A DNA stretch of 27,550 nt from Brevundimonas sp. (GTDB lineage Bacteria; Pseudomonadota; Alphaproteobacteria; Caulobacterales; Caulobacteraceae), in assembly GCF_031082345.1 (NCBI RefSeq), contig NZ_JAVHLH010000006.1, forward strand, positions 1-27,550, given 5' to 3'. Below are positions 13,208 to 26,051 of the stretch, one piece after another. A program made the translations under genes and the position numbers. The notes below the pieces were generated by a model. That model worked only from the letters and a program-made list of their open reading frames with translations, had not been told where the DNA came from and did not search any database. Numbering within the stretch: position 1 is the stretch's first letter; every line of letters begins with the position of its first letter.

Positions 13208-14311
13208 TCAGCCCTCGAGGTCCTGGCCCTCGTCGGGTTCGGGTGTGCCCAGCAGCTCCTCGGCGATCTTGTTGGTCGAGGCGCGCACGGCCTTTTCGAT
13301 CGACTCGGCGATGTCGGGATTGGCCTTGAGGAAGGCGCGCACGTTCTCGCGGCCCTGGCCGATGCGCTGGCTGTCGTAGGAGAACCAGCTGCCCGACTTC
13401 TCGACGATGCCGGCCTTGACGCCCAGGTCGATGATCTCGCCCAGCTTGGAGATGCCCTCGCCGTACATGATGTCGAAGATGACCTCGCGGAACGGCGGGG
13501 CGACCTTGTTCTTGACCACCTTGACCCGGGTGGTGTTGCCGACGACCTCGTCGCGGTCCTTGATCGCGCCGGTGCGGCGGATGTCGAGGCGGACCGAGGC
13601 GTAGAATTTCAGCGCGTTGCCACCCGTCGTCGTCTCCGGCGAGCCGTACATGACGCCGATCTTGTGGCGGATCTGGTTGATGAACAGGACGATGCACTGC
13701 GACTTGTTGATCGAGGCGGTCAGCTTGCGCAGCGCCTGGCTCATCAGACGGGCCTGAAGGCCGGGCAGGCTGTCGCCCATCTCGCCCTCGATCTCGGCGC
13801 GGGGCGTCAGCGCCGCGACGGAGTCGACCACCACGATGTCCACGGCCCCCGAGCGCACCAGGGTGTCGACGATCTCGAGCGCCTGTTCGCCGGTGTCGGG
13901 CTGGGACACCAGCAGGTCGTCGAGGTTGACGCCCAGCTTCTGGGCGTAGCCCGGATCCAGCGCGTGTTCGGCGTCGACGAAGGCGGCGGTGCCGCCGGCC
14001 TTCTGGATCTCGGCCACGGTGTGCAGGGCCAGGGTGGTCTTGCCCGAGCTTTCCGGCCCGAACACCTCGATGACCCGGCCGCGCGGCAGGCCGCCGATGC
14101 CGAGCGCCATGTCGAGGCCCAGCGAGCCGGTCGAGACCGAGGGAATGGCCTCGGTCACGCCGTTCTTGCCGAGCTTCATGACCGAGCCCTTGCCGAAGGC
14201 GCGGTCGATCTGGGCGATCGCCGCCTCCAGAGCCCGCTGCTTGTCGCCGTCGTCCCGGGTCACCAATTTCAAATTCGCCTGTGCCGCCACCTTGCCGCTC
14301 TCCCTTGCCAT
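13208..14311 (-). CDS. recA: RecA recombinase
   Basis: This 367-residue ATPase forms filaments on single-stranded DNA, drives strand exchange and stimulates LexA self-cleavage in the SOS response. Walker A GPESSGKT lies at 85-92, Walker B IVVVDS at about 159-164, and the conserved [13 protein letters not shown] and [17 protein letters not shown] follow. The acidic C-terminal tail ([12 protein letters not shown]) is typical. The start at 14311 is chosen because the protein then begins with [11 protein letters not shown], near normal length; the frame runs on to a TTG at 14413 without homology. A candidate SOS promoter lies about 75-110 bases upstream and an intrinsic terminator follows. Confidence 0.97.
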
Positions 14312-14383
14312 GATTCCCAACCGGTACCCGGGGGAGAGGCCCGCCTTCGGTCCGATGACCGTGACCCACTCCCTGTGAGCGGC

Positions 14384-14420
14384 AATATGTGCACGGTTTG
14401 TTCCGGTTGCCAATATGTTC
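14384..14420 (-). promoter_or_regulatory. Candidate recA promoter with a near-consensus SOS box
   Basis: On the minus strand GAAC-N7-CAAC (14420-14406) matches the alphaproteobacterial LexA site GAAC-N7-GAAC (equally GTTC-N7-GTTC) at seven of eight bases. It overlaps a -35-like TTGGCA (14413-14408) which, after 18 bases, is followed by CATATT (14389-14384). This geometry fits LexA blocking the -35 region of recA. CAATATGT is repeated at 14383-14390 and 14411-14418 on the plus strand. Confidence 0.55.
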
Positions 14421-14540
14421 TTTTCGGAACGGCGGAGGGATACGTCCGATTTTGACGTAGGGCGACCGGCCGGCGCCGACGGGCGACTTCATCGAAGCCG
14501 GGGTCTGCATCGCCCCAAGAGCAGCATTTTCCCCGTTCCG

Positions 14541-14568
14541 GCCCCGTCGCCGGCGCTACCGGCGGGGC
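14541..14568. other. GC-rich hairpin over the stop codon of the gene at 14556
   Basis: GCCCCG plus CCGG pairs with CCGGCGGGGC across a 3-base bulge and a 5-base loop. The stop codon (14556-14558) is in or near the loop. There is no T-run, so it is at most a weak terminator or an RNA-stabilising stem. Confidence 0.4.
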
Positions 14569-14951
14569 TCCTGACGTCCCCATCGGTCGAAGATCTCGAC
14601 CCGTCCGCTGAGCATCACCGTGCCCAGGCTCGCGCCGACCGGAAAGAAATACTGGCCTCGGGCGTCGGGCCTGACAGGCCGCCCATCGACAGTGAGCGTC
14701 AACTGCCTGTTGGGCGGGCAGCTCTGTCGGGGAGCGCAGGCCGTCGAGACCGCGTATTCACCCCGTTCGACCCTCACCCGCGCCGAGAAGCGGCCTTCCC
14801 GATCCGTGGTCGCGATTACGATCGCCGTGCCCCCGGGATTCTTGCCCAGATTGACATCGACCCCGGGGATCGGTTCGCCCGGGTTGATCGCCGCCCCCGA
14901 GACGGCCAGGGCAAGGCCGATGAAGGCGATGAGTCTCAGTATCGATGTCAT
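14556..14951 (-). CDS. Secreted protein with a Cna-B/carboxypeptidase-regulatory-like domain
   Basis: A 131-residue protein with an N-terminal signal (about residues 1-20). The mature part carries PGVDVNLGKNPGGTAIVIA followed by TTDREGRFSARV and GEYAV, the T-D-x-x-G-x-F/G-x-Y-x-V pattern of small beta-sandwich domains of the transthyretin or Cna-B type. Two Cys (CAPRQSC) may form a disulfide. The start at 14951 has GGGAGA six bases upstream on the minus strand, and the signal peptide begins there. The same pattern recurs in two genes of the divergent operon, and the two promoter regions share a bipartite motif, so a joint role is likely. It precedes recA on the same strand but is separated from it by 244 bp. 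Confidence 0.8.
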   Translation of the reverse strand: MTSILRLIAFIGLALAVSGAAINPGEPIPGVDVNLGKNPGGTAIVIATTDREGRFSARVRVERGEYAVSTACAPRQSCPPNRQLTLTVDGRPVRPDARGQYFFPVGASLGTVMLSGRVEIFDRWGRQEPRR

Positions 14952-15000
14952 GTCGGGTCTCCCGCAAGGCCATGCCGGCCGCTGTTTGCGGTCGGACAAC

Positions 15001-15031
15001 GCTGGTCACCGAAAGGCTCCGCTGTCAATGC
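15001..15031 (-). promoter_or_regulatory. Left copy of a bipartite motif (divergent promoter)
   Basis: On the minus strand this is GCATTGACAGC-N11-GTGACCAGC. It includes a TTGACA -35-like hexamer about 72 bases upstream of the gene ending at 14556. The same two blocks with the same 11-base spacer occur in the other orientation at 15167-15197. Confidence 0.6.
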
Positions 15032-15166
15032 AACCTGTGGCCTATTCGTGAAGATCCCCTCGGACGACTGGAGTTCGGGTCCGATTGGCGAGGACATGTC
15101 TCAAGTCTGAATGTCTCCAGAGCACGACCACTGAAACGGTGATGTGGTTTCCCGAATATTCAAACC

Positions 15167-15197
15167 GCATTGACAGCCAGGCTTGGCCGTGACCAGC
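15167..15197 (+). promoter_or_regulatory. Right copy of the bipartite motif (operon promoter)
   Basis: GCATTGACAGC (15167-15177), 11 bases, then GTGACCAGC (15189-15197). TTGACA at 15170-15175 is 65 bases before the first gene of the operon. No consensus -10 is seen, so the second block may be a non-canonical -10 or an operator half. Confidence 0.6.
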
Positions 15198-15240
15198 CTG
15201 ACAAACCGCCGATATTCGTGCGGATACTGGAACTGTCATT

Positions 15241-15933
15241 ATGGCATCGCGAGTGGGTCTGATCGGGCTGGCCAGTCTGGTGGGCCTGGCGTTGTCGACC
15301 GCCGCCTACGCCCAAACGACGCGAAGCACCGGCGGCATCGTCATCGTCTTTTCCGACATCACAATCTCCTCCATGCACGGCGGTCGCACTGTCACCACCA
15401 CGCGTACCGACCGGCAGGGGGGCTTTCGCTTCGAACTGCCCGCGGGTGACTACGACATCTGTCTCAATGGACCCGGTCTCAGGGCGGCGATCGATCGCTC
15501 CGGCGGCGGCCAGGATGAGGACCGCATCATCGGAATCCTGGTTGGACTGCTGCTGCCGGCGGTCCAGGCCGCACCCGCTGAGCGGAGACTGACCTTCCCC
15601 GGTGCCGCCTCGGGACCGGGCCAGGACGGACGACGCGGCCTCTCGCCAGCGGCGCGGGACCTGTGTTTCCCTTACACCGTCAATGCGGGTCCCGGACCCG
15701 CTGACGATGTCGAGACGCGCAGAACCCGCGTCGTCGACAACGTGAGCCCAGCCCCCGTCGATCGTGGACGCGCCGGCGGCGTCCGGGTGGCGACGGGCGA
15801 TGTAAACGGCGACGGGCGCGCCGACCGCCAGGTCGATCCGCGCATCGCGTCCCCTGGCCCCCAGGCGACCCCCGCGCGCCCCGCCGCGCCTCAAACCGTT
15901 GCCGTCGCCGGCTCGATCCGCCTGGTGCGATGA
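15241..15933 (+). CDS. Secreted protein with Cna-B-like N-terminal domain, operon gene 1
   Basis: A 230-residue protein with a clear signal peptide (residues 1-25, cleaving after AYA). The mature N-terminus carries RTDRQGGFRFELPAGDYDI, the same beta-sandwich signature as in the divergent gene and in operon gene 3. The rest is low in recognisable structure, with a Pro/Ala/Gly-rich C-terminal half and DVNGDGRADRQVD, a short Asp-rich stretch that looks like a calcium-binding or FG-GAP loop. The ribosome site before ATG 15241 is weak. Its TGA overlaps the ATG of the CsgG-like gene by four bases, so the two are probably translationally coupled. No named family; envelope or surface location inferred. 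Confidence 0.7.
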   Translation: MASRVGLIGLASLVGLALSTAAYAQTTRSTGGIVIVFSDITISSMHGGRTVTTTRTDRQGGFRFELPAGDYDICLNGPGLRAAIDRSGGGQDEDRIIGILVGLLLPAVQAAPAERRLTFPGAASGPGQDGRRGLSPAARDLCFPYTVNAGPGPADDVETRRTRVVDNVSPAPVDRGRAGGVRVATGDVNGDGRADRQVDPRIASPGPQATPARPAAPQTVAVAGSIRLVR

Positions 15934-16817
15934 GCATGACCGACCTGACCCTGAACCGCCGACTGGTGCTGTCCGGCGCAACCCTCGCCGTGGCGGGCCT
16001 CGCCGCCCCGGCCATGGCCCGGCCCCAGACTCGCGCCGCCTTCGACGGCCTGAGAAAGACCATCGCGGTCGATCTCTTTCAGGCCACCGAGGCCGTCGGC
16101 GGTTCGGTCACGGCCGAGGGCATGACCGCCATGCTGACCCAGGCCCTGGTCGAGGACGGCCGTTTCCTGGTGATCGAAGGCGGCGGGGGAATGGAGGCCA
16201 GCGCCGTCGTGCGCGGAGCCGTGACCAAATACGAGGCGGCGGCGGGCGGCGGCGGGCTGAGCATCAGCGGCGGCCCGCTGGGCGGCCTGCTGGGCGGTCG
16301 CGCCAGCACCCGCAGCCAGACCGCGGTCATGGAGATCGCCCTGCGCCTGGTCGACGCCGCCTCGGGCCAGGTGGTCTCGACCTCCAGCGCCCAGGGGCGC
16401 GCCACGTCGCGCACCTCGGAGGCCGGATTGGTTGAAAGCTGGGGCGGCGGGCGACTGGGCGGCGAGATCTTCCGCACAACCCCCATCGGGCAGGCGGGCC
16501 AGGACGCCATCATGAAGGCGGTGGATCAGATCGCCGGGGGAATGCGCGCAGTGGAATGGTCGGCGCTGGTGGTCGATGCCGCCGACAACGGCGTCTATCT
16601 GAACGCCGGGGCCGACCGCAACGTCCAGTCCGGCCTGATGCTGAGCGTCTGGCGGCCCGGCCGCACCCTGACCGATCCTGGCACCGGCGAGGTCCTGGAC
16701 GTTGAGATGGCCCGCATCGGCCGGGTCCGGGTCGAGACGGTGCGCGACCGGCTGTCCATCGCCAGCATCGTCGATGGCGAGCCGCCCATCCGCGGCGACG
16801 TTCTGAAGGCGGATTAA
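15930..16817 (+). CDS. CsgG/HfaB family protein, operon gene 2
   Basis: A 295-residue protein with an N-terminal export signal containing NRRLVLSGATLAVAGLAA, possibly Tat-type, ending A-M-A. The mature part fits the CsgG family: VTAEGMTAMLTQALVEDGRFLVIE, then EIALRLVDAASGQVVSTSSA. Family members form the outer-membrane pore for curli subunits (CsgG) or help anchor the Caulobacter holdfast (HfaB). Unlike E. coli CsgG there is no lipobox Cys, so its membrane anchoring must differ. A Gly-rich stretch (AAGGGGLSISGGPLGG) may be the pore-loop region. It is flanked by secreted-protein genes rather than by known curli or hfa genes, which suggests a different substrate. An alternative ATG lies at 15936. 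Confidence 0.85.
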   Translation: MSMTDLTLNRRLVLSGATLAVAGLAAPAMARPQTRAAFDGLRKTIAVDLFQATEAVGGSVTAEGMTAMLTQALVEDGRFLVIEGGGGMEASAVVRGAVTKYEAAAGGGGLSISGGPLGGLLGGRASTRSQTAVMEIALRLVDAASGQVVSTSSAQGRATSRTSEAGLVESWGGGRLGGEIFRTTPIGQAGQDAIMKAVDQIAGGMRAVEWSALVVDAADNGVYLNAGADRNVQSGLMLSVWRPGRTLTDPGTGEVLDVEMARIGRVRVETVRDRLSIASIVDGEPPIRGDVLKAD

Positions 16818-16835
16818 CAGCCTCGAGAGATGACC

Positions 16836-17594
16836 ATGACCATCAGACCTGTCGCCATCGCCGCCATCGCCCTGCTGCTCGCGGCCTTCGGGCAAGCCAC
16901 GCCGGGCACCCCGATTTCAGATACACCCATCGGCCTCGAGGGCGAGCCCCAGTGGCTCGCCGCCCCCGTCCGGACCGACGCCCGCGGAGAAGCCGTCTTC
17001 TCCGTCGGACCCGGCCGCTATGCGGTGTTCCTGACCAACCCATCGGTCACAGCCGTCGTGACCGTCACGCCCGTCAACGACGCGCCGTCGATGACCTCCG
17101 CGCCGATCAGACCCGGTCGAGGTCGGGTCTATGCGGTCGACGCTACGGGACGCCGGCTGGTGACCAGCGTCCCGCGCGGCGGCGGCCGCGTTCGTGTCTC
17201 CCTGAGCGTCTGGGATGATACCGATATCGTGCACCGCCAGGTCGATGATGGTCGGATCGACCGCCCCCTGAACGGGGCCGGCTCCGGCGGACTGATCGCC
17301 GCCGGGGCCTCGGCCCCCGTCAATGGCATTGGTGGAACCGGCGGCGGCCGGCTGTCGAACAGGGGGCGCCCGGAAAACGGAGAAACGCGGGCGACCGCCA
17401 ACCCATCCGGCGGACCCATCGACATTGAGTCGTGGTCATGGGGGCGGATCGATCGGGTGAATACGGTGCAGGTGTGCGCAGCGCGAGGCGGGGACGTCGT
17501 CATGCATGAGGGCGTCCAGCAGTGCCGCCTGCCGGCGACGGCCCGCCGCGAGGAGACCAATTCGGCAATGGGGACAGTATCGACCACGCGTTAG
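16836..17594 (+). CDS. Secreted Cna-B-like protein with a C-terminal C-x15-C module, operon gene 3
   Basis: A 252-residue protein with a signal peptide (residues 1-21), a Cna-B-like segment (VRTDARGEAVFSVGPGRYAV), a Gly/Arg-rich linker and a C-terminal module with Cys214 and Cys230: C-x15-C ending GVQQCRLPAT. The same module occurs in the next two genes. The start at 16836 is preferred over 16830 because GAGAG at 16825-16829 then has six bases of spacing. It lies 18 bp after the CsgG-like gene. The 3' end is nearly identical in DNA to that of the next gene. The two Cys probably form a disulfide in the periplasm or outside the cell (inference). No family recognised. Confidence 0.75.
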   Translation: MTIRPVAIAAIALLLAAFGQATPGTPISDTPIGLEGEPQWLAAPVRTDARGEAVFSVGPGRYAVFLTNPSVTAVVTVTPVNDAPSMTSAPIRPGRGRVYAVDATGRRLVTSVPRGGGRVRVSLSVWDDTDIVHRQVDDGRIDRPLNGAGSGGLIAAGASAPVNGIGGTGGGRLSNRGRPENGETRATANPSGGPIDIESWSWGRIDRVNTVQVCAARGGDVVMHEGVQQCRLPATARREETNSAMGTVSTTR

Positions 17595-17734
17595 ACCTGA
17601 CCGGGCCCCGCCAACGGTTCGCCCGTCCCAAAGGCTGCAACAAGGAAATGGACACCATGCGGAAAGCAGCGATCATCCTGGCCGGCGCGGCCATGTTCGA
17701 CCTCGGCATCGTCGTCGTATCGGTCCAGGCGCAG
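17450..17734 (+). repeat. Tandem duplication, unit 1
   Basis: This segment covers the 3' end of operon gene 3, the spacer and the 5' end of gene 4. It is closely matched by 17941-18222 at an offset of 491 bp falling to 488 bp. The best-conserved parts are the QQC module through the stop codon and the first codons of the next gene. Confidence 0.85.
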
Positions 17735-18085
17735 CAGGTAACTCAGCAACCGCTGATCCGACCTGGGACGAACGTTCCGGCTTCTGAGGGACAGGATGCC
17801 CGCGGGACCACCAGAACGGGTGACGAGCGCGCCGGTGCCCTCGGGACCGTCACTTTGAGTGGGAGTACAGACAACGGCGTGCGTGAAAGCAGTCGTGATC
17901 GTCATATCGACAAATCAAACCCGGTAGCCTTCATCAAGATCGATCTGGTGAATACAGTCCAGTCGTGCATCGGCCGCCGGGGCGCGGTGGTCACTGTCGA
18001 CGGCGTCCAGCAGTGCCGCCTGCCGGCGACGCCCCGCCGCGAGGAGGCCAATTCGGCAATGGGGGCAGTATCGACCACGCGTTAG
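17657..18085 (+). CDS. Small secreted protein with one C-x15-C module, operon gene 4
   Basis: A 142-residue protein. The hydrophobic N-terminus (MRKAAIILAGAAMFDLGIVV, ending VQAQ) looks like a signal peptide, though an Asp lies inside it. The middle is polar and low in complexity (Arg, Asp, Ser, Thr, Gly). The module has Cys104 and Cys120 and ends GVQQCRLPATPRREE. The start is set by AAGGAA at 17642-17647, nine bases upstream. Codon use in the middle (AGT, CGT, AAA, TCA) is less GC-biased than in neighbouring housekeeping genes. It shares its C-terminus with gene 3 and its N-terminus with gene 5, as a tandem duplication would produce. Function unknown. Confidence 0.72.
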   Translation: MRKAAIILAGAAMFDLGIVVVSVQAQQVTQQPLIRPGTNVPASEGQDARGTTRTGDERAGALGTVTLSGSTDNGVRESSRDRHIDKSNPVAFIKIDLVNTVQSCIGRRGAVVTVDGVQQCRLPATPRREEANSAMGAVSTTR

Positions 18086-18222
18086 ACCGACGGGGCCCGC
18101 CGACGGGCCACCCGTCCCAAGGACTGCGACAAGGAACAGACACCATGCGGAAGACAGCCCTCATCCTGGCCGGCGCGGTCGCCTTCGACCTCGGCGTCGT
18201 CGTCGTATCGGCCCAGGCGCAG
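17941..18222 (+). repeat. Tandem duplication, unit 2
   Basis: Second copy of the unit at 17450-17734: 3' end of operon gene 4, spacer and 5' end of gene 5. Stop-codon contexts (GTATCGACCACGCGTTAGAC) are identical in the two copies. Confidence 0.85.
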
Positions 18223-18690
18223 GAAAGCGTGCGTCCGTCGCCAGGAGCCGTCGTCGCGGCGCCCGGAACGATCCCGAACCGGGATCACATCGACCAGGAC
18301 GCCCAGATCACGGCCTGCGCCGACGGCAAACACATGCCTGACACCCGGCTCAGCGCCTGTCGGACCAACCCTTCGGATCCGTCGGGCCCCGCCAGTCAGA
18401 CGAGAGCCGGCGACATGTTCCTCAAGATCGACGCCGGATTCACCGCCCGGGCCTGCGCATCCCGGCGCGGCGCGGTCGTCAGGCATGAGGGCGTTCAGCA
18501 GTGCCGCCTGCCGGCGACGGGAGACCTCGACATCCACAAACAGGGTGTGGCGTTGAGCTTTACGAAGATCGACATCCACTACACGGCTCGCGCCTGCATC
18601 GCCCAGCGGGGCGAGATCGTCACGCGGGACGGTGTCCAGCAGTGCGCCCTGCCGGCCGAACCGGGGAACACCAGACCCAGCCGGCGATAA
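18145..18690 (+). CDS. Small secreted protein with two C-x15-C modules, operon gene 5
   Basis: A 181-residue paralogue of gene 4 with the same signal-like N-terminus (MRKTALILAGAVAFDLGVVV, ending AQAQ). It has two modules: Cys104/Cys120 (ending GVQQCRLPATG) and Cys151/Cys167 (ending GVQQCALPAEP), each preceded by KID and T-A-R-A-C, with a 47-residue period. Two further Cys occur earlier (ITACADGKH and LSACRTN). The first module sits at exactly the same residue numbers as in gene 4. The ribosome site AAGGAA (18131-18136) is eight bases before ATG. The stop overlaps the ATG of the YkgJ-type gene in TAATG. Export is inferred from the N-terminus. Confidence 0.72.
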   Translation: MRKTALILAGAVAFDLGVVVVSAQAQESVRPSPGAVVAAPGTIPNRDHIDQDAQITACADGKHMPDTRLSACRTNPSDPSGPASQTRAGDMFLKIDAGFTARACASRRGAVVRHEGVQQCRLPATGDLDIHKQGVALSFTKIDIHYTARACIAQRGEIVTRDGVQQCALPAEPGNTRPSRR

Positions 18691-19499
18691 TGGCTGACGA
18701 TACGAGTTCCGCGCGCGCGGGCGTACGACGCGGGGCGCCGCCGCAACCGGTCGGTCCGGACGAGGACGCGGTCGTGCGCCTGTCGGCGGCCCCGTCCGAC
18801 GGGGAGGCGACCGCGACCGGTCGGGTGGTGCTGGAGGTAGGGAGAGAGCGGATTCCGGTCGAGATGACCGTGCCCGCCGGCCTCGTCGCGGTCGAGGACG
18901 TGCTGCCCATCATTCACGGCCTCAGCAGCCTGTTCGCGACGCGGGCGACGGCGCGGGCCGAGGCGGACGGGCTCGAAATTTCCTGCCGCGCCGGCTGCGG
19001 CGCCTGCTGCCGCCAACTGGTGCCGGTCGCCCCCGCCGAGGCCCGCGCCCTGGCCCGGCTGGTCGAGGCCATGCCCGAGCCGCGGCGCGGACGGGTGCGC
19101 CGCCGGTTCGAAGCGGCTCTCGACACCCTGGAGCCGCTGGGCCTGATGGAGCGGCTGGACCGGAACCGCGATGACCGCCAGCTGATCGCACGGGAGTATT
19201 TCGCCGCCGGCGTCGCCTGCCCCTTCCTTGAGGACGAGTCGTGTTCGATCCACGCCGACCGGCCGCTGTCGTGTCGCGAATATCTGGTCACATCGCCGCC
19301 GGCCCTGTGCGCCGCCCTGACTCCGGGCATCGAGAAGGTGGTCCTTGAGGCCCGGCCCTCGCTGGCGCTTCTGAACGCCGATCTCCGGGACGGGTGGCTG
19401 CCGCTCGTGCTGTCGCTGGTCCAGGACGCCCAGTCTCCGCCTTCGCCCCGTGACCGCCCTGCAGCCGAGATTCTGAAACAGGTGATCAGCGGCCTGTGA
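18690..19499 (+). CDS. YkgJ-type cysteine-cluster (CxxxCxxCC) protein, operon gene 6
   Basis: A 269-residue cytoplasmic protein of the YkgJ/UPF0153 zinc- or iron-chelating family. The cluster is CRAGCGACC (Cys99, 103, 106, 107), completed by Cys177 in CPFLEDESC, Cys185 and Cys195 in RPLSCREY. The family is suspected to bind a metal or Fe-S centre; some members are linked to protein modification, but the role here is unknown. The N-terminal 90 residues are an unusual extension with low-complexity start. It has no signal peptide. Its ATG overlaps the stop of the secreted-protein gene (TAATG), so it is translated from the same mRNA. It is the last gene of the operon; no clear terminator follows. 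Confidence 0.88.
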   Translation: MADDTSSARAGVRRGAPPQPVGPDEDAVVRLSAAPSDGEATATGRVVLEVGRERIPVEMTVPAGLVAVEDVLPIIHGLSSLFATRATARAEADGLEISCRAGCGACCRQLVPVAPAEARALARLVEAMPEPRRGRVRRRFEAALDTLEPLGLMERLDRNRDDRQLIAREYFAAGVACPFLEDESCSIHADRPLSCREYLVTSPPALCAALTPGIEKVVLEARPSLALLNADLRDGWLPLVLSLVQDAQSPPSPRDRPAAEILKQVISGL

Positions 19500-19676
19500 G
19501 ACCGGGCTGGAAGTCGATCAGGGACGAATGCCAACGGTAAAACGTTTCGCTTGGACGTCGCCCAACCTCCGACCTGCAAAACGGACCTCTTCAAGTTGGT
19601 AGGCGTGACAGGATGCATTGGCGGCGCGTCGGCCGCGAGGACTTGATCCTCAAGCGTCGCCATGCGTTCAGGGGCC
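19500..19676. other. Intergenic stretch between the operon and the GNAT-nitrilase gene
   Basis: About 177 bp with lower GC than the neighbouring genes. AAACGTTT is a short palindrome. I see no clear terminator, promoter or small gene here. Confidence 0.5.
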
Positions 19677-21224
<1,548 letters not shown>

Positions 21225-25363: not shown

Positions 25364-25402
25364 TTAATGAGTCCTTGGGAAACCCGCTTAAGGGTCAGTT
25401 AG
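25364..25402 (-). promoter_or_regulatory. Two candidate CtrA boxes upstream of the cheY-cheR pair
   Basis: TTAA-N7-TTAG at 25388-25402 matches the CtrA site TTAA-N7-TTAA at seven of eight fixed bases, and TTAA-N7-TTGG at 25364-25378 matches at six. They are 24 bp apart and lie about 70-110 bases before the cheY-like gene; the first covers the chpT stop codon. This would place cheY-cheR under the regulator that CckA and ChpT phosphorylate. Confidence 0.55.
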
Positions 25403-26051
25403 GCATGTGGATGGTCAGGGCCACGCGGCCCTCGTCGGCCTGCACCGCGAGCGAGCCGCCCGCGTCCCGGGCCGTCAGCCACAGCCAGTAGGGCTGGATC
25501 CATTGTCCCGGCAGACCCTCGTCCAGCGGGCGCCCCGTCAGGCCGGCCACGGCCTCGGGCTTGAGCCGGGCCCGCGCGCCCTCGGCCACGCCGGCGATGG
25601 TCAGATTGGCGCCCTCGCGTCGGGTCGAGACCGCCGCCGAGCCGCCCGACGGGAGGGCGGCCATGGTCAGGTAGGCGAGGTTCACCAGTGCGCGGGCCTG
25701 GGCCTTGGAATAGTCGCCGCCCTCGGCCCGCCAGTCCAGCGTCGCCCGACCGCCCTCCGTCAGGCCGGCGATCAACTCGCCCAGCTCCGCCGCGGAGAAT
25801 CGCTCCGCCGAGGTCGAGGCCCCGAAGGCCACCCGGGCGAAGGCCACCAGCGCGACCATCTTTTTCGCGCTGGCCTCGATCAGCCCCATGGCGTCCTCGC
25901 GCATGTCCTGGGCGGTCGGATCCTTCAGCAGGTCCAGCCCGGAACTGATCGCCCCGGCCGGGCTGATGAAGTCGTGGCACAGCTTGCCGGCGACCAGCGC
26001 GGCCAGGGCCTGGCCGTCGGGAAGGGAGGAGGGCGTGTCGGTGTCGGTCAT
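25395..26051 (-). CDS. chpT: ChpT histidine phosphotransferase
   Basis: A 218-residue cytoplasmic dimer that relays phosphate from the CckA receiver to CtrA and CpdR. The dimerisation helix has LCHDFISPAGAISSGLDLL with phospho-accepting His26. The rest is a degenerate histidine-kinase-like ATPase fold (HPTransfase family) that lacks N, G1 and G2 nucleotide motifs, as in ChpT. The start at 26051 gives MTDTDTPSS; no strong Shine-Dalgarno is seen. It is divergent from cysQ across 90 bp. It lies upstream of the cheY-cheR pair, an order I recall from Caulobacter. The nearby cckA (start to start about 26 kb) is unusual compared with that genome. Confidence 0.92.
   Translation of the reverse strand: MTDTDTPSSLPDGQALAALVAGKLCHDFISPAGAISSGLDLLKDPTAQDMREDAMGLIEASAKKMVALVAFARVAFGASTSAERFSAAELGELIAGLTEGGRATLDWRAEGGDYSKAQARALVNLAYLTMAALPSGGSAAVSTRREGANLTIAGVAEGARARLKPEAVAGLTGRPLDEGLPGQWIQPYWLWLTARDAGGSLAVQADEGRVALTIHMPN

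Follow-up and report, generated by a model that had tools for sequence, protein, structure and literature searches.

What does a CsgG-type gene do in the midst of genes for small, exported-looking proteins? The question is raised by a stretch of Brevundimonas sp. DNA (NCBI RefSeq assembly GCF_031082345.1, contig NZ_JAVHLH010000006.1, positions 1 to 27,550; "the window" means this whole stretch of 27,550 nucleotides), in which six plus-strand genes, P1 to P6, form a cluster over positions 15241-19499. Our tentative answer, which has somewhat less than an even chance of being right, is that the cluster encodes an exported envelope assembly that is derived from Hcp and independent of type VI secretion, a function read from sequence. 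Hcp is known as the tube-forming protein of the type VI system, a contractile apparatus for injection. What is new here is the presence of short Hcp segments on exported proteins, both those with a C-x15-C module and Cna-B-like ones. No description of such a system was found among the literature matches listed, which comprise titles and the beginnings of abstracts in open PMC.

The original prediction, made from the DNA alone, described six genes that overlap or lie within 62 bp of one another, and the coordinates of the open reading frames (ORFs) agree, each gene lying where it had been placed. P1 and P2 overlap by 4 bp and P5 and P6 by 1 bp; the gaps are 12 bp between P2 and P3, 53 bp between P3 and P4 (62 bp when counted to 17657, where the signal-like leader of P4 starts) and 59 bp between P4 and P5. 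Four of the products look exported, as had been claimed, signal peptides being judged by eye throughout: the TTR/Cna-B-like P1 (15241-15933, 230 residues), the TTR-like P3 (16830-17594), P4 (17648-18085) and P5 (18145-18690). The C-x15-C module, rightly seen to be repeated, is present in four copies: one at the C terminus of P3 (17433-17543), one in P4 (17927-18034) and two in P5 (18412-18519 and 18556-18663). As a known domain it goes unrecognized, with no Pfam match in P5 and merely DUF359 at E 0.12 in P4. The leader of C-x15-C proteins, MRKTALILAGAxxFDLG, is unusually strongly conserved.

That exported C-x15-C and TTR/Cna-B-like proteins of the cluster carry Hcp segments is well supported by sequence comparison. 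A profile built from 18 Hcp sequences, none taken from a C-x15-C cluster, scores 15.9 bits on P5 and 11.0 bits on P3, values reached by 0 of 300 shuffles in either case. Three segments can be placed in P5, all on the plus strand and each with 0/60 shuffles in hhalign: ITACADGKHMPDTRL (18307-18351; profile 70-84, E 4e-6), DMFLKID (18406-18432; profile 2-10, E 1.6e-6) and VALSFTKIDIHYT (18547-18585; profile 124-134, E 1.7e-4). In the case of P3, the profile search places one segment, IDIESWSWG (17397-17459, plus strand), at profile 16-36, and hhalign with its cassette gives Hcp 22-33 (E 1.6e-6, 0/60 shuffles). The match of P1 from the window is weak by itself (0.7 bits, reached by 3/300 shuffles); an alignment of eight orthologues matches profile 99-112 at E 4e-4 (0/60 shuffles; 15337-15384, plus strand, ends approximate), and the orthologue in L037, one of the relatives' loci that we number with an L, scores 5.4 bits (0/500 shuffles). 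The segments on the separate exported proteins are distinct and mostly non-overlapping. P2, P6 and the neighboring gene product P7 have no match to the profile; the C-x15-C and TTR parts, used as controls, have none in profile-profile alignment, and among 49 control alignment windows none scores 18 or more.

The same likeness is found in other genera. A cassette from Phenylobacterium and Caulobacter aligns with Hcp 82-109 above 60 of 60 column shuffles, and one Phenylobacterium C-x15-C protein passes the Pfam cut-off for T6SS_HCP (24.2 bits against 23.5; profile 80-111), with two others just below it (21.5 and 20.7 bits). In a Caulobacter operon (L069), four exported-looking proteins match Hcp 18-42, 83-124, 37-59 and 121-134, each with 0/500 shuffles; together these span Hcp 18-59 and 83-134, in an order along the operon that differs from the order in Hcp. 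Among the rejected candidates are a cassette with NSSGATIA (17/60 shuffles) and an exported TTR-like gene in L072 (4358-4906), taken by eye for Hcp strand 3, whose score is reached by 16/500 shuffles. Since the cassettes were chosen by eye for Hcp likeness, their shuffle tests are optimistic, a point that counts against the assembly, and an unselected test is fairer. In that test, which drew on loci chosen for the cluster, 381 called proteins no longer than 300 residues were scored; the 29 that reach 5 bits are 4 exported Hcp proteins and 25 cluster proteins, some of the latter being second calls of one protein.

Intact exported Hcp can also be found beside the CsgG type. In G615, a genome of another family (genomes are numbered with a G), a full Hcp with a signal peptide (T6SS_HCP, 123 bits) is encoded directly upstream of a CsgG/FlgT gene; the CsgG type occurs in 6/7 genomes of that genus, and 4 of these 6 have an exported Hcp as the immediate upstream neighbor of csgG-flgT_C within a 1.5 kb flank. 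The same flank holds no Hcp at the CsgG-type loci of G518 and G639, and the signal-peptide Hcp-like proteins of G304, G269, G266, G148, G518:C1 and G615:C24 have no CsgG-type gene within 12-13 kb. G304 is a cluster genome with a full exported Hcp-like protein. The full-length signal-peptide Hcp-like proteins of four Caulobacteraceae loci (L176, L198, L201 and L204, in G304, G266, G148 and G269, respectively) bear cysteines.

The alternative that survives best, although we consider it somewhat unlikely, is that the strands of an old exported Hcp have been reused by domain shuffling as generic hairpins or linkers of an envelope adhesin or coat, so that nothing Hcp-like is left, with the CsgG-like protein exporting or anchoring the shuffled products. 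It would account for segments that are out of order, vary between species and are missing from several proteins, and modules such as the TTR/Cna-B-like parts (below cut-off) and DUF11 are typical of surface proteins; the low-confidence model of P5 also fits. Yet the pieces come from different regions of one fold instead of repeating one favored hairpin, and they lie in one operon, and the CsgG type adjoins an intact exported Hcp in another genus.

P2 (15930-16817, plus strand) begins with a twin-arginine start, NRRLVLSG, and has no cysteine. Its assignment as a CsgG/HfaB-like protein is borne out by Pfam (PF03783, 55.4 bits; cut-off 20.8) and by profile comparison with the solved CsgG structure (E 6.6e-7), in which the aligned part includes TM1 and the start of TM2, the two amphipathic membrane hairpins that characterize each CsgG subunit. 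The C-terminal domain, residues 219-283 (16584-16778, plus strand), is of the FlgT/TsaP type: it matches chain 6ve2_O, which we take to be TsaP (the name used by the depositors of 3jc8), at E 1.9e-7, and scores 17.0 bits for FlgT_C, below the cut-off of 27. By fold, the middle and C-terminal domains of P2 are those of FlgT/TsaP. The monomer model agrees better with a FlgT ring than with CsgG; its top match is a chain of the flagellar LPHT ring. P2 thus shares with FlgT of the flagellar H-ring and TsaP of the type IV pilus both the two-domain arrangement and the C-terminal domain, but its FlgT_C score is below cut-off, Pfam finds no LysM, and no flagellar or pilus gene was noticed by eye among the neighbors.

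A true secretion channel of the curli or HfaB type, with the small proteins as amyloid-like or adhesive substrates, is an unlikely identity for P2. For it speak PF03783 above cut-off, the match to solved CsgG and similar TM1/TM2-equivalent lengths (36/36 residues in P2, 30/39 in CsgG, 38/38 in HfaB). Against it, the TM2 equivalent is polar, with 2 aromatics against 5 in CsgG and 4 in HfaB, in a crude comparison whose score overlaps for some relatives (e.g., 2.58 in L106); the best model match is the LPHT ring chain; and the lipobox pattern is found in the first 45 residues of 0/20 rows of alignment A5, with starts chosen by us, and of 0/22 rows of alignment A6, some of them cut at the N terminus. 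Pfam and NCBIfam, searched up to E 1, place none of P1 to P7 in a csgA, csgB, csgE, csgF, hfaA or hfaD family, in agreement with the original prediction. P2 keeps the PF03783 domain and N-terminal domain fold of curli CsgG (type VIII secretion) while differing from it in the FlgT/TsaP-type C-domain, the missing lipobox and the lack of curli partner families. Of the proposed joint CsgG system, what finds support is a separate locus of the CsgG family that encodes exported proteins, and a role for P2 as exporter is spoken against by lipobox, TM2 and model.

HfaABD, the holdfast anchor of Caulobacter, is one of the close comparisons, as it likewise combines, in the Caulobacteraceae, a CsgG-family protein with exported partners; a passage of PMC6707917 states that surface HfaA and HfaD require HfaB. 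Another CsgG-family gene lies on a different contig of the window's own genome, between ORFs that we presume to be hfaA and hfaD. The HfaB encoded there has a lipobox-like signal end, GGC, and a more hydrophobic TM2, and P2 has neither. P2 adds the FlgT/TsaP-type domain, and its partners carry Hcp segments. Because this hfaABD-like locus lies elsewhere in the genome, P2 belongs to a second CsgG-type system. The earlier gene inventory, sound for the six genes, had missed this locus, the Hcp segments and a seventh gene, P7 (14556-14951, minus strand), which encodes an exported-looking TTR/Cna-B-like protein of 131 residues. P7 is divergent to the cluster in six relatives' loci (L031, L032, L034-L037), in further loci having another orientation or place, and belongs to the cluster as its seventh member.

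The cluster is patchy within the genus. Among 121 genus genomes, a P2 search matches 24 at E 0.001; close copies (74-100% identity) occur in 10, the own genome included, at 12 loci, and the remaining matches are weak (E 1e-8 to 1e-4). The neighbors of the CsgG gene recur in relatives, with varying content, at 11 more loci, in nine genomes besides the own one, which is more than chance would give. Named records of close copies are mostly Brevundimonas, two bearing only the name Caulobacteraceae or Caulobacterales bacterium. A YkgJ-type gene is present in 10/12 genus loci, and the other two (L039 and L040, in one genome) end at a contig edge. The content of the remainder is more fluid: P1 in L031 is merely a 25-residue match, a close P4 orthologue occurs solely in L031, and the number of TTR-like genes varies. 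In L038 the TTR-like, C-x15-C and YkgJ-type genes come before the csgG part. Beside csgG, L033 carries two additional genes with exported-looking products (about 6793-6209 and 6115-5564, minus strand); one, with Cys pairs, resembles by eye the csgG neighbor in L074, and the extra DUF11 protein passes the Pfam cut-off at 31.2 bits. The ratio of nonsynonymous to synonymous substitution rates (dN/dS), against the best-matching ORFs of five relatives, is 0.14-0.77 across all seven genes; the CsgG and YkgJ types have the lowest values, and the highest belong to P3 and P4, whose partners are in part, and for P4 mostly, paralogues.

The chromosomal place of the cluster also differs. In three loci (that of the window, L031 and L035) it has recA on one side and a GNAT-nitrilase gene on the other; at the other genus loci, neither gene is found within the stretch examined. 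The GNAT-nitrilase gene was found in 26 of 61 genus genomes searched. Of the 26 loci, 8 have recA within 1.5 kb upstream of this gene (about 215-250 bp away in five of them), and the interval contains no gene of the cluster. Since this junction is often free of the cluster, and the cluster lies elsewhere in other loci, it is most likely an insertion that entered several chromosomal places.

Independence from type VI secretion is suggested by the genomes themselves. The own genome has neither a T6SS_HCP match nor VipB, and the sheath gene VipB/TssC is found in 0/9 cluster genomes tested, the control G282, with an ordinary Hcp, being positive; across the family, T6SS_HCP is matched in 22 of 199 genomes, in one case by a C-x15-C protein. 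Such absence, the lack of Hcp in the own genome and the sporadic occurrence at differing chromosomal places would equally suit a device against type VI attack, in which exported mimics of Hcp strands bind or poison the Hcp tubes of attackers and the ring protein serves as holder. We regard this as improbable, as an intact exported Hcp beside the same ring gene is no fragment mimic.

P6 (18690-19499, plus strand) is a YkgJ-type protein in which no signal is seen; its assignment to the metal-cluster family holds (PF03692, CxxCxxCC; 35.7 bits, cut-off 23). Eight cysteines are invariant in 10/10 rows of alignment A2, with the motif CX3CX2CC. FliB, which methylates flagellin lysines, has eight conserved cysteines, a [4Fe-4S] cluster and the motif CX4CX3CC, which its authors compare with PF03692, according to the excerpt of PMC8598068. 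The two are alike in cysteine number and similar in motif, differing in its spacing, and FliB modifies an exported subunit. In the excerpted text of PMC8743551, an E. coli YkgJ mutant forms filaments in biofilms with biomass, curli and adhesion unchanged, and so gives no direct support for a role of the YkgJ-type protein in the cluster.

How firmly these genes belong together can be judged across the family. The sampling covers 1880 genomes, repeats included, and relatives' genes come from our own crude caller. Of 299 Caulobacteraceae genomes, 17 have the CsgG type (E limit 1e-10), 12 the YkgJ type (1e-10) and 10 the C-x15-C module (1e-3). All 10 genomes with the module have a P2-like CsgG type (p 1.4e-14, ignoring phylogeny), as do 9/12 YkgJ genomes. 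A scan with named records yields 24 P2-type loci in Brevundimonas, Caulobacter, Phenylobacterium and unplaced Caulobacteraceae or Caulobacterales, and in a sample of the class C-x15-C proteins occur in 2/279 genomes, both of the window's genus, few of the sampled genomes being Caulobacteraceae. Homologous operons do not usually lack CsgG, the outcome that had been named as fatal to a joint system: it is present in 14/17 loci with C-x15-C and YkgJ-type genes, 10 of them in the window's genus (own included) and 4 in other genera (L069, L072, L073, L098). In the three exceptions (L146, L147, L148) the C-x15-C gene adjoins the YkgJ-type gene and CsgG lies in another part of the genome, so that the C-x15-C-YkgJ pair is a tighter unit than either with CsgG, with exceptions. 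One is L149 (G302:C9:595301), a lone C-x15-C protein with no YkgJ-type or CsgG gene in 12 kb (Hcp, 21/300 shuffles). The CsgG type stands alone, followed by long DUF11-like proteins (by eye), in L075, L077, L078 and L079. This reading of neighborhoods leaves out L166, L167 and L169. The cysteine-rich YkgJ-type domain and the tight linkage might also suggest an envelope module for metal or redox buffering, its Hcp likeness incidental, but this has very little chance of being right, as that likeness is far above controls and each module has two cysteines only.

We return to the Hcp-derived assembly. The Hcp-piece proteins probably form one system with the CsgG/FlgT-like and YkgJ-type proteins. 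By analogy with FliB, P6 may modify or metallate the C-x15-C proteins in the cytoplasm before export. Signals and families suggest export by Sec or Tat in the cluster: the C-x15-C proteins would leave via Sec, the cysteine pair closing as a periplasmic disulfide, and that the CsgG/FlgT-like protein may form an outer-membrane ring holding or passing them. Hcp strands would pair with one another or with a partner, forming at the envelope a ring, tube or coat that resembles Hcp, and the TTR/Cna-B-like domains would be exposed stalks. Cluster proteins share segments of the Hcp chain with type VI Hcp and differ from it in having signal peptides and in the distribution of the pieces over separate proteins, fused to C-x15-C or TTR-like parts. 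A bolder version, which we think unlikely, is a dismantled Hcp, whose strands on three or four exported proteins would re-assemble outside the cytoplasm with the CsgG/FlgT-like outer-membrane ring as mount. Re-assembly would proceed by strand complementation, as in pilins, with the YkgJ-type protein as an Fe-S enzyme maturing the subunits. The outcome would be a tube or surface organelle that has its Hcp fold in common with type VI secretion but uses none of that system's machinery.

Several further results weigh against an Hcp-derived assembly. P4 fails as an Hcp carrier, both in the profile search (128/300 shuffles reach its score) and in profile-profile alignment, as does a cassette with PVNGIGG (3/60 shuffles). 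The profile is not significant for L031_C1, L033_C, L146_2, L149_C, L038_cas and L039_cas and is borderline for L041_C (5/300 shuffles) and L147_2 (2/300). The segments are short and may be generic hairpins, and the AlphaFold model of P5, with a predicted local distance difference test (pLDDT) score of 44, is too poor for structure search. In terms of a full Hcp domain (PF05638), the own genome has none, only segments. Pore formation by P2 is doubtful on its sequence features. The CsgG type also occurs without a recognized Hcp piece nearby, for instance before DUF11-like proteins. Three YkgJ genomes (G178, G225, G334) lack the P2-like CsgG type, and in L150 and L151, the loci of two of these (G225 not among them), a YkgJ-type gene has no C-x15-C gene within the stretch examined.

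Other features of the window can be added. The Cna-B likeness of secreted proteins is visible, but its Pfam scores stay below cut-off: P1, which also has the motif DVNGDGRAD, scores 26.4 bits for CarboxypepD_reg (cut-off 32.3) and 18.9 bits for FG-GAP, P7 and P3 score 25.1 and 14.3 bits for CarboxypepD_reg, and SdrD_B reaches 17.6 bits (cut-off 29.7). NCBIfam places none of the cluster proteins above any cut-off. The ends of P3 and P4 (17511-17598 and 18002-18089) are, by eye, near-identical DNA and resemble the outcome of a tandem duplication. P1 and its homologues have a conserved hydrophobic IIGILVGLLLPA-like stretch (15526-15561 in P1), seen also in the TTR-like proteins of L069 and L072; similar ends, LLPAIQKVREA, are seen in L201 (its Hcp-like protein) and in a gene adjoining that of L207. 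The region is flanked by genes that look like cckA (246-2279) and chpT (25395-26051), alongside recA- and alaS-like genes. Rfam at gathering score finds no RNA family in 14000-20000. Promoter-like sites (2 against 0.4 expected) and terminator-like sites (2 against 2.2) were not used as evidence.

If the Hcp-derived assembly is real, a tube fold can be split over several polypeptides and can take the general export route, and the cluster is a directly testable case of fold fragmentation. For the Caulobacteraceae it would mean a possible new surface structure, and for YkgJ-type proteins a candidate job.

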